Shown here piece by piece: positions 2,717 to 14,067 of a stretch of 21,345 bases of DNA. The position numbers and the translations under genes are program-made. A model generated the notes under the pieces. The model had not been told where the DNA came from, searched no databases, and saw only the letters and a program-made list of their open reading frames with translations. Source of the DNA: a virus. The stretch covers positions 1-21,345 of the IMG/VR virus record IMGVR_UViG_3300008952_000348; one strand, 5' to 3'. Each line of letters starts with the position of its first letter. Position 1 is the first letter of the stretch.

Positions 2717-4000
2717 TTAGTTAACGTAGATCACCTTACCGAAAGGCGGGTTGAATGAAACAGAATCCCAAAGAACCCAGTAGACAGGGAAGTTGGGTTT
2801 CCAGTGAGTAGGGAACCGAGAGCAATGTCCATCAGTCGCATAGATACAGAAGTCGATACGCTTGCCCTTCATGTTCTCACGTATCCATCGGAACGCTCCC
2901 CGATAATTCGTACCACCACCACCTATCCACTTAGGCTTGAAACTCTGAGCATTGGTATGATTCATATGCTCGACATTCTTAACACCTGTATCAGCAGAAA
3001 TGACGGTGCATTCCCCTTCATGAGTTGAATACATGCCTTTCAATTCAGCATCTATCTCATTTGTAGTATGTATATCCACACTCCCAGATGTATCCGTAAT
3101 CCAGATCCCATTCCCAAGGGACTGCCCAACCATACTGGGCAGATGCATGCGCTTGTGGATAAACCTGCGGTTGCTGGGGAACCAAGCGTAGTTGCTACGG
3201 CTAGAACGTGAGATCAAGTTTGTGAGTAGCTTTGTCCATTTCAGTTTTGGTCGGAGCAAAGCTGTGATCTGCTTTTCCAGATCCCCAGATATAGTCCCTG
3301 CCAACAGCCCTGCGCTGAGTGCCTGAGCAATCTGTTTTTTATTCTCGTCAATCTTCTGCTGAATTTCCTCTGGGGAAGGGCCTTTGCCTGCCTTACCATC
3401 ATCTTCAGACTTGTCACCAGATGAGCCTTCACTGTTGTCATCACCCTCACCACTACCGTCACCCTCTGGTTCCCAAGGGATAACATCGCTATCCATTTCA
3501 TGTTCTGGAAGATCTGGCTTACCCTCTGGGTTAGGGTTATTCTCATCGCAATGGAACTGCTTGCCGATATATTCGTATGCTTGTGGCAATGACATCCTGC
3601 TGATCTTGAAGAAGTCATCAACCCCGGAAGGCCAGTTCGTGGGAAGGATCCCAGACTCTGGAAGAACTGCATTATCTGCTAGGCATTTAGCGTTGACGAT
3701 AACATCCATCGCTACGTTTGCCTGCTTATGATTTTTATAGAAGTCTGGGGATTCCCGAATACGAACGCTATGCTCTAACAAGTCATGATATGCTTCGTGT
3801 CGCTTGACACCTGCCTGCTCTGAACTTGTCAGAGAATCCAACCATTTCTCATTCCATACTGTCTTATTGCCATCAGTCCCAGCAGAAGGGACATCCTCAC
3901 TGAATAAGTCTGGGTGATAAGACATGAAGTGCCCAAGGAATGGTTCATCAAGAAGAAAGTTGATGCGAAGCTTCTGAAGCTTCTCAGGGATCTTGATCAT
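2717..4000 (-). CDS. HExxH metallopeptidase-like / VWA-like domain protein (DUF2201 type)
   Basis: This is a two-domain protein of 427 residues. The N-terminal domain (about 1-165) carries HEAYHDLLEH at residues 68-77, a HExxH zinc-site pattern with a further histidine. Together with the preceding DVPSAGTDGNKTVWNEKWL context, this matches the metallopeptidase-like domain of DUF2201-type phage and bacterial proteins. An acidic, glycine- and serine-rich linker follows (about 170-215). The C-terminal domain (about 295-427) is VWA-like, with a MIDAS-type DTSGS at 303-307, a conserved threonine in GGGGT (360-364) and ATDG ending at about 391. The ATG overlaps the stop of the MoxR ATPase gene by ATGA, a coupling typical of MoxR-VWA pairs, in which the ATPase and the VWA partner act together as a chaperone-like remodeller. 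The phage substrate is unknown, and peptidase activity is not demonstrated by the motif alone. Confidence 0.87.
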   Translation of the reverse strand: MIKIPEKLQKLRINFLLDEPFLGHFMSYHPDLFSEDVPSAGTDGNKTVWNEKWLDSLTSSEQAGVKRHEAYHDLLEHSVRIRESPDFYKNHKQANVAMDVIVNAKCLADNAVLPESGILPTNWPSGVDDFFKISRMSLPQAYEYIGKQFHCDENNPNPEGKPDLPEHEMDSDVIPWEPEGDGSGEGDDNSEGSSGDKSEDDGKAGKGPSPEEIQQKIDENKKQIAQALSAGLLAGTISGDLEKQITALLRPKLKWTKLLTNLISRSSRSNYAWFPSNRRFIHKRMHLPSMVGQSLGNGIWITDTSGSVDIHTTNEIDAELKGMYSTHEGECTVISADTGVKNVEHMNHTNAQSFKPKWIGGGGTNYRGAFRWIRENMKGKRIDFCIYATDGHCSRFPTHWKPNFPVYWVLWDSVSFNPPFGKVIYVN

Positions 4001-5028
4001 ATCAGTGCTCCGAATTTGTTTGTGAAGTCAACCATATGAATGTTCTCTACAAACTCGCTGTCAATCTTCTGGCATTGCCGAGCCAGTACGATTGCAAACT
4101 CTGGGGATAGCTTGAGAGAGTATCTGAGTATCCTGCCAGCCAGCTCAGGGTCTGCATCGAAATGCGATATCAGCCCAGCAACAACGGCCCACGTGACCGA
4201 CATTTCAGTCGGGACCTCACCCTCTTCTGGGTTGGATATAATTGCATTGATATTCGGCATTCTGCCGTGGCAGTCAAGATAGGCGATGAACTCTGTGCCT
4301 TCACCCTCACCTACAGCATTCTGTACGGTTTTGCGGAATAGTTCCGCTGGTTTACGGTGATCAATCACGCCATTAATATCTTCCCAAACATCGTACAACT
4401 TGCTCAGGTAAGTCCACGTTCGCATGCTACCGAATGCCATATCGGTGGCATCCCCTGAATATGAGAAGAGAAGTTCTGGGCGAAAGTAGAGAAACCCAAT
4501 CACTTCATCACGTATGTTAGTCCTATCGAAATCATCGACAGTTGGATCGACATGTACGTGGTTAGCAAAACGGTTAGCGTTCGGCGCAGGAACGTCGAAC
4601 GTAACACCGTTGTCTTCACTTCTGTTTCCGCATGCCCAGACAACCCAACCGTCTGGGAGTATGTAGTTTCCGATTCTTCTGTCAAACAGAAGCTGGTATA
4701 AAGAGCTTTGAACAGTAGGGACACCAGAGTTGAATTCATCCAACAGCAGGATGCCTTCCACGCCATCACGTTCTGCATCTGGGAAGCAGTCAAAGGGTCG
4801 CCACGTGGCAGAATCCCCATTGATATCGGGCAACCCACGTACATCGACAGGATCAAGCTGAGATACTCGCAGATCGATAAAGCCAATCTTGCGCTTCTCA
4901 ACAAAGCGATGAACCGTACTGGATTTAGCACTGCCCGAAGTGCCCCAGAAGAATACTGGAAGTTTTAATTTCCAGTAGACAGGAAGCAGGGAAGTAAGCT
5001 GGGATAAGGTTACGGATTGCATTGCCAT
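3997..5028 (-). CDS. MoxR-type AAA+ ATPase
   Basis: This 343-residue AAA+ protein has Walker A GTSGSAKSS (29-37), Walker B LLLDEFN (94-100), a sensor-1-like asparagine in WACGN (131-135) and a likely arginine finger near NRFAN (152-156). The segment after Walker B (SGVPTVQSSLYQLLFDRRIG, then LPDGWVVWACGNR) is the MoxR/RavA pattern. The expected product is a cytoplasmic ring ATPase that uses ATP to remodel a target together with a VWA protein. The VWA partner is encoded immediately downstream with an ATGA overlap. The ATG at 5028 lies in CATATG with AGGAAT upstream; M3 is an alternative start. The 323-residue gene lies upstream across a 71-base gap that contains a perfect palindrome and one copy of the AAACAAGTA element. 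The target in the infected cell is unknown. Confidence 0.9.
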   Translation of the reverse strand: MAMQSVTLSQLTSLLPVYWKLKLPVFFWGTSGSAKSSTVHRFVEKRKIGFIDLRVSQLDPVDVRGLPDINGDSATWRPFDCFPDAERDGVEGILLLDEFNSGVPTVQSSLYQLLFDRRIGNYILPDGWVVWACGNRSEDNGVTFDVPAPNANRFANHVHVDPTVDDFDRTNIRDEVIGFLYFRPELLFSYSGDATDMAFGSMRTWTYLSKLYDVWEDINGVIDHRKPAELFRKTVQNAVGEGEGTEFIAYLDCHGRMPNINAIISNPEEGEVPTEMSVTWAVVAGLISHFDADPELAGRILRYSLKLSPEFAIVLARQCQKIDSEFVENIHMVDFTNKFGALI

Positions 5029-5085: not shown

Positions 5086-5102
5086 AAACAAGTATGCATT
5101 TA
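5086..5102 (+). promoter_or_regulatory. Repeated 17-base element, copy 1 (divergent)
   Basis: The sequence AAACAAGTATGCATTTA differs at two positions from the copy at 6336-6352. It is preceded by ATCGTATCTG, similar to the ATCGTATTTTTTATAG before copy 4. It overlaps the stop codon of the 323-residue gene and lies in the gap before the MoxR gene. All four copies are in this orientation although the neighbouring genes here are on the minus strand, so a role as an operator or processing site fits better than a plain promoter. Confidence 0.5.
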
Positions 5103-6114: not shown

Positions 6115-6145
6115 ATTATGATCCGAAACTTCCCGAACGGAATTT
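6115..6145 (-). promoter_or_regulatory. Promoter-like element, copy A
   Basis: Read on the minus strand: CGTTCGGGAAG, eight bases, then CATAAT as a -10 box. It lies 44 bases upstream of the ATG at 6071, the first gene of the MoxR/VWA cassette. The four copies share the CGGGAAG core and a TATAAT-like box 8-9 bases after it. The classical TTGACA -35 box is missing, so recognition probably needs an extra factor. Confidence 0.65.
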
Positions 6146-11073: not shown

Positions 11074-11505
11074 ATGGTTGGGAAGATAAAAGGGACCAGA
11101 CTTACCGTTGTAAAATTCTCCCACAGGGATGACAAATATCGAAAGATCATGCTGTTTAGGTGTGATTGCGGGAATTACAAGAAGATAAGACTTCATCATG
11201 TGCAGAGATTAGAAATCAAAAGTTGCGGGTGTCTGCAGAAAGAATTCCAACATCAGCCTGACCATATGGAGAAGATGAGGGCTTCCCCTAAGAGACTGCC
11301 TAATTTGAGGAAGGTTAAGGCAAGCACCCCAAGCGAGAGGAAAGGCAAGATTAGAATAGAGGTCCCTGAAGGCAGTAGAAGGTATAAATACGTGACTGAG
11401 CAGGAGCTTTTTTCTATCTACTATGGGGTAGAGGTCGAGTCTTTAAGGCTAAAGCCACCATCACACAACAAAGGTAAGAAACTTGTTGACGGGGTGTATG
11501 CTTGA
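11074..11505 (+). CDS. Phage zinc-binding protein with CxC...CGC (143 aa)
   Basis: The start at ATG 11074 (MVGKIKGTRLTVVKFSHRDD) is preferred over 11035, which lies inside the nuclease gene; a GAGG stands 11 bases before it. The N-terminal 60 residues hold a four-cysteine site: C30/C32 (FRCDCGNYKK) and C51/C53 (KSCGCLQ), with GTRLTVV in front. This is the GxRLTV...C-CDCGN...SCGCL pattern common to phage zinc proteins related to the DNA-binding parts of homing endonucleases. No HNH nuclease motif follows. The rest is basic (RASPKRLPNLRKVKASTPSE), suggesting DNA or RNA binding. It overlaps the start of the large terminase by four bases. Confidence 0.65.
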   Translation: MVGKIKGTRLTVVKFSHRDDKYRKIMLFRCDCGNYKKIRLHHVQRLEIKSCGCLQKEFQHQPDHMEKMRASPKRLPNLRKVKASTPSERKGKIRIEVPEGSRRYKYVTEQELFSIYYGVEVESLRLKPPSHNKGKKLVDGVYA

Positions 11506-13301
11506 GTATGCAGGCCAATACACAGCAACTTCATGAATATTTTCAGAAGCTGGTAGGTGATGACGAGCTTTATTTCTACGAAGCCCTTAAAATAATTGAG
11601 TTCGGCACTAAGAAACTCATCCCATTCAGGCTGAACATTGTTCAGAAGATCCTTCACGACATAGCGAAACAGCAAATGCGTGAGGATGGACATGTCCGCA
11701 TCATAGTCCTTAAAGCCCGTAGGTTCGGGATCTCCACCTACATTCAAGCCCGTTTCTTTAAGAAGGCATCCACAGAGTTTAACAAAAGCGTTCACATAGC
11801 TACACATGATCGTGCGACAAGCGACACGATGTTCAGTATGGCTAGGGTGATGGAGCAGAACTACCCAAAGGTGATCAAACCAGATTTGATGTACTCAGGC
11901 AAGCGTGAGCTGACTTGGGCATCCGAGGACGGAGGTGGTTTGAACAGCAGATACAAGCTTTCTTCTGTTGCTGGGTCTGAAGTCCGTGGTGATGCGATAG
12001 ACTACCTGCACTGTTCCGAGGTGAGTTCGTGGGGCGAATCCGCTAGGAACTTCGCAGTGGGGTTACAAAACTGCGTACTATCGGGGTTCAATACGGAAGT
12101 CTGGCTTGAATCGACTGCCAAGGGGGTAGGCAACTTCTTTTATGATGAATTCTGGAGAGCGCACAGGGGCGAAAGCGGGTTTAGAAGTGTGTTCTTCCCT
12201 TGGTTTATCTTTCCAGACTATAGACGAAGTCTAACTACTGACGAGCTAGAAAATGACAAATTTATAAATTTATTAGGCAGTGAGAAGCGGTATGGCGGTT
12301 CAAACGAGGTGGACCTGCTGGGGTATAAGAAAGTGTACGATTTAGGGGATAGGCAGATAGAGTTCGAGGTTACAGCAGAGCATCTGAAGTGGCGAAGGCT
12401 AACCATTGATACACAGTGTCAGGGGGATATCCTTATGTTCAATCAAGAGTACCCAGTCACTGAGGAATCGGCGTTTATATCCTCTGGCAGGTCTGTATTT
12501 GATTTGAATGTATTAAGCCGTATGCAGTTGAGGATCAATGAAGCATATCAGTATAAACCCCCAGATATTTATCGAGTCCCAGTAAACGAATTCGGGATGA
12601 TGCACAACGGGGTCATTCGGGACCGGAAGATGAAGTATTATCTTGACCCAGATGATACGGGGGACTTTGAGATATGGGTTCACCCAGTTCCAGATCGGGA
12701 GTACCGCATAGGGGCTGATGTATCTGAGGGGATTGAAGTGAACAATAGAGATACAGACTATTCAGCAGTATGTGTTATTGATTCAGAAACATTGGAACAG
12801 TGTGCGTTGTGGCGTGGGAAGATAGATCCAGACCTTCTGGCGTGGGTTCTTTGCTCAATAGGGAAGTATTATAACGAGTCTCTGATAGGGGTGGAGAGAA
12901 ACAACCACGGCTTAACAACACTTACCTCTCTAAGGAATATACATCAGTACCCTAATATTTATTTTGAGAAAGTGTTGGATGAGAGGTCAAACAGAAGGCA
13001 GAAGAAGATAGGCTGGAATACCACACTGAAATCCAAACCAGTGCTGGTTAACAACCTGCGTGAATTGGTTAGGGAGGAAGACATAGAGATCCGCTCGAAG
13101 AATATCGTCAGTGAGCTGTCTTCATTTGTTCACCATCCAGACGGGAAGATGGGAGCCCAATCTGGGAACCACGATGATACGGTCATCGCTCTGGGGATCG
13201 CTGTGATGATGGCTCAACTACACCCGCCTAGTCGGCTCTCTTTGATGAGAAAACGGGAGAAACATCAAAAGAGCTATATACCCGTCATGTCATATCGTTA
13301 A
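11502..13301 (+). CDS. terL: Terminase large subunit
   Basis: This is the packaging motor: an N-terminal ATPase that drives DNA into the capsid and a C-terminal nuclease that cuts the concatemer. At residues 71-79 KARRFGIST is the Walker A-like loop in the variant form common in large terminases. At about 168-175 YLHCSEVS gives Walker B with E173. ESTAKG at 203-208 is the coupling motif. The RNase H-like nuclease has D406 in GADVSEG, E465 in GVERNNHG and D558/D559 in HDDT. The length of 599 fits. The first start is TTG 11502, overlapping the TGA of the gene upstream and seven bases after GGGG; ATG 11508 is an alternative. All catalytic residues appear present. Confidence 0.93.
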   Translation: MSMQANTQQLHEYFQKLVGDDELYFYEALKIIEFGTKKLIPFRLNIVQKILHDIAKQQMREDGHVRIIVLKARRFGISTYIQARFFKKASTEFNKSVHIATHDRATSDTMFSMARVMEQNYPKVIKPDLMYSGKRELTWASEDGGGLNSRYKLSSVAGSEVRGDAIDYLHCSEVSSWGESARNFAVGLQNCVLSGFNTEVWLESTAKGVGNFFYDEFWRAHRGESGFRSVFFPWFIFPDYRRSLTTDELENDKFINLLGSEKRYGGSNEVDLLGYKKVYDLGDRQIEFEVTAEHLKWRRLTIDTQCQGDILMFNQEYPVTEESAFISSGRSVFDLNVLSRMQLRINEAYQYKPPDIYRVPVNEFGMMHNGVIRDRKMKYYLDPDDTGDFEIWVHPVPDREYRIGADVSEGIEVNNRDTDYSAVCVIDSETLEQCALWRGKIDPDLLAWVLCSIGKYYNESLIGVERNNHGLTTLTSLRNIHQYPNIYFEKVLDERSNRRQKKIGWNTTLKSKPVLVNNLRELVREEDIEIRSKNIVSELSSFVHHPDGKMGAQSGNHDDTVIALGIAVMMAQLHPPSRLSLMRKREKHQKSYIPVMSYR

Positions 13302-13344: not shown

Positions 13345-13380
13345 TTATCGTATTTTTTATAGTAAACAAGTAAGTATTAT
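13345..13380 (+). promoter_or_regulatory. Repeated element, copy 4, before the head operon
   Basis: AAACAAGTAAGTATTAT (13364-13380) is preceded by TTATCGTATTTTTTATAG. It lies in the 208-base gap between the large terminase and the next gene and directly abuts the structured leader. In the plus-strand copies 3 and 4 the flank TTATCGT--TTTAT-G is shared. Confidence 0.58.
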
Positions 13381-13383
13381 GGA

Positions 13384-13487
13384 CGAGGGCTCGATGTGCA
13401 CAGTTGGTCTTTAACTAAGGCTGAGCTCAATTAACTCTGCATAGGTCGGGAAACCTAAGTGAGTCCTCGGTTCATTTCCAAGAACCG
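13384..13487 (+). ncRNA. Structured RNA leader candidate
   Basis: A branched fold can be drawn by hand. A closing stem of nine pairs joins 13384-13392 to 13461-13469 (one G-U). Inside it, 13395-13405 pairs with 13433-13443 (ten pairs, one mismatch) and encloses a hairpin, 13406-13411 with 13417-13422. A second hairpin is 13442-13446 with 13453-13457 around CGGGAA. After the closing stem comes CGGTTC/GAACCG (13468-13473 with 13482-13487). TTAACT occurs twice (13411 and 13431), so AGTT at 13402 can pair with either, which allows two conformations. The ribosome site AAGGAG lies 11 bases beyond the last stem. No known riboswitch or ribozyme was recognised. Confidence 0.5.
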
Positions 13488-13509
13488 TTCATAATCATAA
13501 GGAGATAAT

Positions 13510-14067
13510 ATGTCTGACATGAACGATGCCTTTTGGCATAAAGGCCAACGCAATATGGTTGGCAGTCGTTGCTACAGCAAGGGTACTCTTGCTATGCATG
13601 CAACGACAAAAAATGATGTTAAAACAGGTGGGGCAATAGCCTATTCGATTGCTGACACTGGTGTGATTTACAACAAGGCGATCGCCTCTTCAGTTGACAT
13701 TTCTGGGCTAGGTGGAGTACACGGGAACAATCCTAAGATTGAGTATTTTGATGATTCTCAAACAACAGCACGAATAACAAGACAAAGTGCTGTTGGTCTT
13801 TCAGTCGCTGATGATGAGCATGTATACATCCTCTTCACGCTTGACGCTAGTGGAACCGTTCGTGTCTACGCTGGAGAAATGGTTGGTATCACCGCTACAG
13901 CAAAAAGACCACAGTTGGATCTAAGTGACGAGGCTTGCTTTGGTCAGCTTTACCTCAAGAACGAGACTGGCAGTGCTTTTGTTTTTGGCAGTGCAAATCT
14001 TGATCTTACTACAGGTGACGGAGTGACCGCAACATTTACTGATCTCAGCTTTCCACCTTCTGACTGA
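13510..14067 (+). CDS. Probable virion protein, possible head decoration (185 aa)
   Basis: This 185-residue protein is rich in G, A, S, T and D with alternating strands (DEHVYILFTLDASGTVRVYA, then GQLYLKNETGSAFVFGSANL), typical of a beta-rich virion protein. It has one cysteine near the N-terminus and one in the middle, no signal peptide and no membrane helix. It has a strong AAGGAG site and follows a structured leader, so it is probably highly expressed. Its place between the large terminase and the portal suggests a head-associated or capsid-decoration protein. No family is recognised, so the role is inferred from composition and position. Confidence 0.6.
   Translation: MSDMNDAFWHKGQRNMVGSRCYSKGTLAMHATTKNDVKTGGAIAYSIADTGVIYNKAIASSVDISGLGGVHGNNPKIEYFDDSQTTARITRQSAVGLSVADDEHVYILFTLDASGTVRVYAGEMVGITATAKRPQLDLSDEACFGQLYLKNETGSAFVFGSANLDLTTGDGVTATFTDLSFPPSD

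Follow-up and report, generated by a model that had tools for sequence, protein, structure and literature searches.

The gap between the large terminase gene (terL) and the head operon of a phage genome fragment from IMG/VR (the window, that is, the whole 21,345-nt stretch analysed) carries a conserved, strand-specific RNA fold whose position in the genome is constant, at the start of the head operon. It belongs to a well-supported RNA family of uncultured phages that is absent from both Rfam and the cultured-phage collection searched. We tentatively favour the view that it is a cis-acting structured 5' leader of the head-operon mRNA, which would shield the 5' end of the message and keep the ribosome-binding site beside a fixed fold. 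The original prediction had proposed an unrecognised branched RNA at this position and listed a cis-regulator of the virion operon among its possible roles; of these, a cis-acting leader is the reading that best fits the results below.

A three-way junction RNA between terL and the head operon

The interval from the end of terL (13301) to the ATG of the next gene (13510) was folded and compared with its counterparts in related phages. Positions 13376-13495 of the plus strand form a three-way junction in which an outer stem (P0), the P1 arm and the P5 hairpin meet with no unpaired junction bases (Table 1). The 104-nt stretch singled out originally (13384-13487) is the interior of this larger junction. 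All of the elements claimed for it are present, the nine-pair closing stem being P1, the inner ten-pair stem P3 together with its extension, the second hairpin P4 and the trailing hairpin P5; P2 and the outer stem P0 were missed, however, and the extent was drawn too short. The fourth copy of the AAACAAGTAAGTATT repeat, after which the RNA was said to begin, is indeed there but overlaps the first 3 nt of P0. At the other boundary the structure does end just before a ribosome site, as described, with 3 nt between P0 and the Shine-Dalgarno sequence, and the spacing from P0 to the start codon is nearly fixed (12-17 nt).

Folding energies agree with this extent. The 104-nt stretch has a predicted energy of -32.9 kcal/mol (z -2.26), a value equalled by 3 of 200 shuffles, and with P0 added the fold of the window reaches -39.3 kcal/mol (z -3.1; 0 of 200 shuffles), so the structure passes the comparison with shuffled sequence that had been put forward as a check. 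Leaders of the relatives give z-scores of -3.5 to -5.3, the range for all full leaders tested being -3.1 to -5.3. In 12 of 12 cases the plus strand folds more stably than its reverse complement, and G-U pairs occur within P0 and P1.

Table 1. Features in and around the gap between terL and the head operon (window coordinates).
Feature	Position	Strand	Pairing and remarks
Large terminase (terL), upstream	11502-13301	+	Terminase_6C (just under the cut-off) and PHROG terminase matches
AAACAAGTAAGTATT repeat (copy 4)	13364-13378	+	Covers the -10 site expected from P0; candidate operator or promoter
P0 outer stem, 5' strand AUUAUGGAC	13376-13384	+	Pairs with 13487-13495; 93% of cells paired (13 versions, 8 pairs counted)
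P1, 5' strand GAGGGCUCG	13385-13393	+	Pairs with 13460-13468
Inner domain (P2, P3 and extension, P4, conserved bulge GAGCU, loop CGGGAA)	13394-13459	+	Optional
P2, 5' strand	13395-13400	+	Pairs with 13438-13443
P3, 5' strand AGUU	13402-13405	+	Pairs with 13433-13436; A-U to G-C in L003
P3 extension hairpin	13406-13422	+	13406-13411 with 13417-13422; U-A to A-U in L003
P4 hairpin GGU-CGGGAA-ACC	13444-13455	+	Invariant among all long forms
P1, 3' strand UGAGUCCUC	13460-13468	+	Covariation
P5 hairpin GGUUC...GAACC	13469-13486	+	Stem 13469-13473/13482-13486; nearly invariant, 1 of 13 versions broken at one pair
P0, 3' strand GUUCAUAAU	13487-13495	+	Fold and covariation
Shine-Dalgarno AAGGAG, first head-operon gene	13499-13504	+	Sequence; 3 nt past P0
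Gene 1 of head operon (185 aa, ..AFWHKGQR..)	13510-14067	+	Follows the leader in every relative; hypervariable

Conservation of the pairing in related phages

Relatives were collected from IMG/VR by TerL searches (66-92% identity) and by pattern searches. Wherever the gap is intact, the leader directly precedes the same gene (gene 1), whose product of 175-203 aa carries the ..FWHKGQR.. motif, and there is a single leader copy per contig, including one contig of 58 kb. Covariation was assessed on 13 distinct scaffolds aligned with the inner domain excised. Standard pairs occupy 97.1% of the cells in these 13 versions as against 86.1% after shuffling (0 of 500 shuffles), and changes on both sides of a pair are seen in 38 cells as against 12.4 (0 of 500), shuffle counts which are not probabilities since the aligned sequences are related. 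A control that keeps this relatedness, in which the pairing was slid, falls to 31-47%. P1 is 100% paired, and in 7 of its 8 pairs both bases have changed, while P5 and the 3' strand of P0 hardly vary, so that covariation cannot test P5. The expectation that homologous gaps would preserve the pairing is thus borne out, with covariation.

An optional inner domain

The leaders come in two forms. In the window, L003/L013, L007, L009 and L012 (long forms) P1 carries the inner domain, whereas in L004-L006, L028, L030-L032, L045 and L060 (short forms, ~57 nt) P1 is a plain hairpin. The ~70-nt domain is thus carried by two clades and replaced by a plain hairpin in two others, a distribution that requires two changes on the TerL tree. 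Between the window and L009 the domain is identical at 63 of 70 positions despite 33% identity at TerL fourfold sites, and it is therefore either strongly constrained or recently exchanged; the fourfold sites are saturated between phages whose inner domains are ~90% identical. The window's domain matches those of L007 and L009 at 62-63 of 70 positions and that of L003 at 53 of 69, though the window TerL is 92% like that of L003, and this closeness to L007/L009 suggests some exchange between phages.

Within the domain, a hand alignment shows three compensated pairs (P3 pair 1, P3-extension pair 6 and P2 pair 6), the last of them broken in L003 and L012. The invariance of P4 leaves no covariation with which to test it, and the unpaired bases GAGCU and CGGGAA are likewise invariant. 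Both copies of TTAACT lie where the original prediction located them (13411 and 13431), but the two-state switch built on their competition is contradicted by L003, in which the partner at 13402-13405 and the downstream copy covary (AGUU/AACU to GGUU/AACC) and the upstream competitor is lost, so that the two competing pairings are not both conserved. The boxA-like GGUCUUUAAC in P3 is also lost in L003 and was ruled out. We regard as coincidence the TCGGGAA common to the P4 loop and to the minus-strand CGYTCGGGAAG repeats, which are essentially absent from relatives. The inner domain probably serves as a module at which a protein or a ligand docks. It is possible, if doubtful, that phages gain, lose or swap it as an insert in the P1 arm of an otherwise standard leader; it would then be a phage RNA module of a new class, acting as an aptamer or as the binding site of a virion protein or of RNA polymerase, and would give modular control of virion production.

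Putative promoters and repeats at the leader

Sigma70-like promoters are recognisable in most of the relatives: scoring 9-11 of 12, they place the expected transcription start at P0 in L007, L009, L012, L028, L030-L032 and L045, and the same promoter was seen by eye in L060. In the window, L003 and L004-L006 no -35 box of sigma70 type can be recognised (6-7 of 12), and for this reason the window's own start site is a prediction only. When up to 3 mismatches are allowed, the AAACAAGTAAGTATT repeat is matched five times in the window (0.87 expected). The copies at 5086, 6336 and 9612 (plus strand) are reversed relative to the leftward genes there, that at 13364 overlaps the expected late -10/+1 region, and L007 has a copy at its leader; the repeat may act as a common promoter or operator at these sites. 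A different repeat, CGYTCGGGAAGWTT, occurs on the minus strand at 6126, 8213, 8673 and 9544, between leftward genes and followed by TATAAT-like boxes. These copies are probably phage-specific promoters, and the repeat is essentially absent from the relatives examined.

Other signals at the leader were considered and discarded. A leaderless mini-ORF from an ATG/GTG in P0 (13379) has neither a conserved length or peptide nor a Shine-Dalgarno sequence, and the constant presence of its start codon is explained by the pairing. Pairing between the P5 loop and the Shine-Dalgarno sequence is possible in the window and impossible in L045 (loop UAAU). No intrinsic terminator (a G+C stem followed by a T run) was found at the leader.

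The leader and the hypervariable gene 1

Gene 1 behaves as a hypervariable cassette in the window and in L003, L013, L005, L006, L030, L031, L032 and L060. L031 and L032 agree at every position of the 420 nt upstream and at 99% of the 500 nt downstream, yet their gene 1 proteins are only ~32% identical, and the same swap pattern recurs for L005/L006 and L031/L060, the left border of the exchange being the leader. In phages that are otherwise near-identical, the leader shows exactly where, on the left, the exchange of gene 1 alleles stops. Gene 1 has no cultured-phage match; its modelled structure is beta-rich at low confidence (pLDDT 67.5), and it has a strong structural match to one uncharacterised phage protein only.

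The TerL protein scores just under the cut-off for Terminase_6C, matches a PHROG terminase and resembles classical nuclease-type terminases. In more distant TerL relatives (48-54% identity) promoter-like TTGAC boxes are often kept after terL; these phages show neither a match to the leader model nor an FWHKGQR gene, and the leader therefore tracks gene 1 within this clade. Roseobacter phage CRP-7, ctuNt529 and Vibrio phage douglas 12A4 lack it. The more distant relatives L115, L116, L133 and L136 have different hairpin-rich leaders in the gap after terL, so structured leaders may have evolved repeatedly at this site.

Searches for known families

The absence of a known riboswitch or ribozyme motif, noted originally by eye, held in a search of 4227 Rfam families at gathering and permissive thresholds, in which the window, L009, L003 and L030 returned chance scores far below the gathering cut-offs. 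The tRNA/tmRNA search gave no hit, and Blast of the leaders against cultured phages gave short chance matches only. In bacterial and archaeal genomes the exact core was not found, and the P5/P0 pattern had 11 matches, about the chance number, with model E-values of 0.01 or worse. Relaxed P4 patterns in IMG/VR recovered the known loci only, plus L050, L157 and L158, which were judged to be chance. Literature searches turned up no account of this RNA. Structured 5' leaders are known as a kind of element; this family is absent from the libraries searched (Rfam and cultured phages).

Possible functions of the leader

If the RNA is a 5' leader, transcription would start at, or a few bases from, P0, and P0, the outer helix of a compact three-way junction, would lock in the 5' end of the message with its triphosphate paired. 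In bacteria, paired 5' ends resist or slow RppH and RNase E (PMC3997798). Pairing at P0 may likewise deny single-stranded ends to 5'-end-dependent decay, with the ribosome site held just outside, next to the fixed fold, and the outcome favoured would be a long-lived and well translated late mRNA. In two clades the extra conserved domain on P1 would tune the leader, probably by docking a protein or ligand. The RNA shares with ompA-type 5' stem-loops, which stabilise bacterial and phage mRNAs, a predicted 5' end in or near a conserved stable helix and a ribosome site just after it; it differs in being a perfect three-way junction with a near-invariant P5 and an optional conserved inner domain, and stabilisation is here predicted. 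The explanation is incomplete, because a simple end-protecting hairpin needs neither the near-invariant P5 nor the conserved inner domain. The family offers a testable case of phage control over the 5' end of a head-operon message, and its natural long and short forms amount to a built-in experiment.

That P5 and the 3' strand of P0 are nearly invariant, while P1 accumulates compensated changes, is what base-specific recognition predicts, and would fit autoregulation, in which the product of gene 1 or of some other virion gene binds P5/P0 (and the inner domain in long forms) and represses gene 1 translation when abundant. The same idea would account for the leader that always precedes gene 1, for the invariant unpaired GAGCU and CGGGAA, and for the mere 3 nt from the end of P0 to the Shine-Dalgarno sequence. 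We consider it unlikely, as an invariant site is ill matched to a hypervariable gene 1 product (30-40% identity beside near-identical leaders), no RNA-binding family was found, and the Shine-Dalgarno sequence lies outside the fold. A new riboswitch, with the inner domain as an aptamer that alters P1/P0 and hence gene 1 translation, would draw on the identity of that domain (62-63 of 70) where TerL fourfold sites are 33% identical, on its conserved unpaired bases and on a junctional shape in a 5' leader like that of riboswitches and protein-binding mRNA leaders. Unlike those, the RNA has no conserved expression platform or conserved alternative pairing; moreover, no Rfam aptamer matches, and two clades dispense with the domain and function with a plain hairpin, which makes ligand sensing distinctly improbable. 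Retention of the stretch as a shared left boundary for gene 1 allele exchange, the fold being secondary, is improbable too: the leader is indeed the point at which otherwise near-identical phages swap alleles (e.g. L003 and L013), and the most invariant part, GAACCGTTCATAA, adjoins the swap, but DNA homology needs no base pairing, and the compensated changes in P1 and the plus-strand bias would be left unexplained.

It is quite unlikely that the fold is a nascent-RNA antiterminator which binds host RNA polymerase as it emerges and makes it read through terminators of the long head/tail operon, like HK022 put, an RNA that suppresses termination through the beta' zinc-binding domain. Both are phage RNAs just downstream of a promoter, the leader is near in size to the two-armed put RNA (~70 nt; PMC9378689), of which putL measures ~60-70 nt, and the L009 operon is unidirectional for roughly 38 kb. 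However, the window has no excess of terminator-like sites (6 found against 10.4 expected, with 1 on the plus strand within the operon). putL serves early operons and has bulged stems, a triple helix and no closing outer helix, whereas this leader belongs to the head operon and is a perfect, closed junction which lacks the two bulged stem-loops with put features (PMC9378689) and has no sequence match to put. The packaging-associated role suggested originally is very unlikely. The compact, near-closed fold adjoins terL, and the phi29 pRNA, also a phage RNA linked to head genes, contains a three-way junction as well; but pRNA works with a phi29-type ATPase, while TerL here is of the classical nuclease type, the sequence is placed as an mRNA leader, no curated pRNA or other Rfam model matches, and more distant TerL relatives do without the leader.

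Elsewhere in the window, positions 2717-5028 of the minus strand hold paired genes, also present in L077 and L079, for a DUF2201 VWA/metallopeptidase-like protein and a 343-aa protein without a Pfam family. The two ends of the L009 contig each hold part of the DUF2201 gene, which suggests that this genome is circular or permuted.
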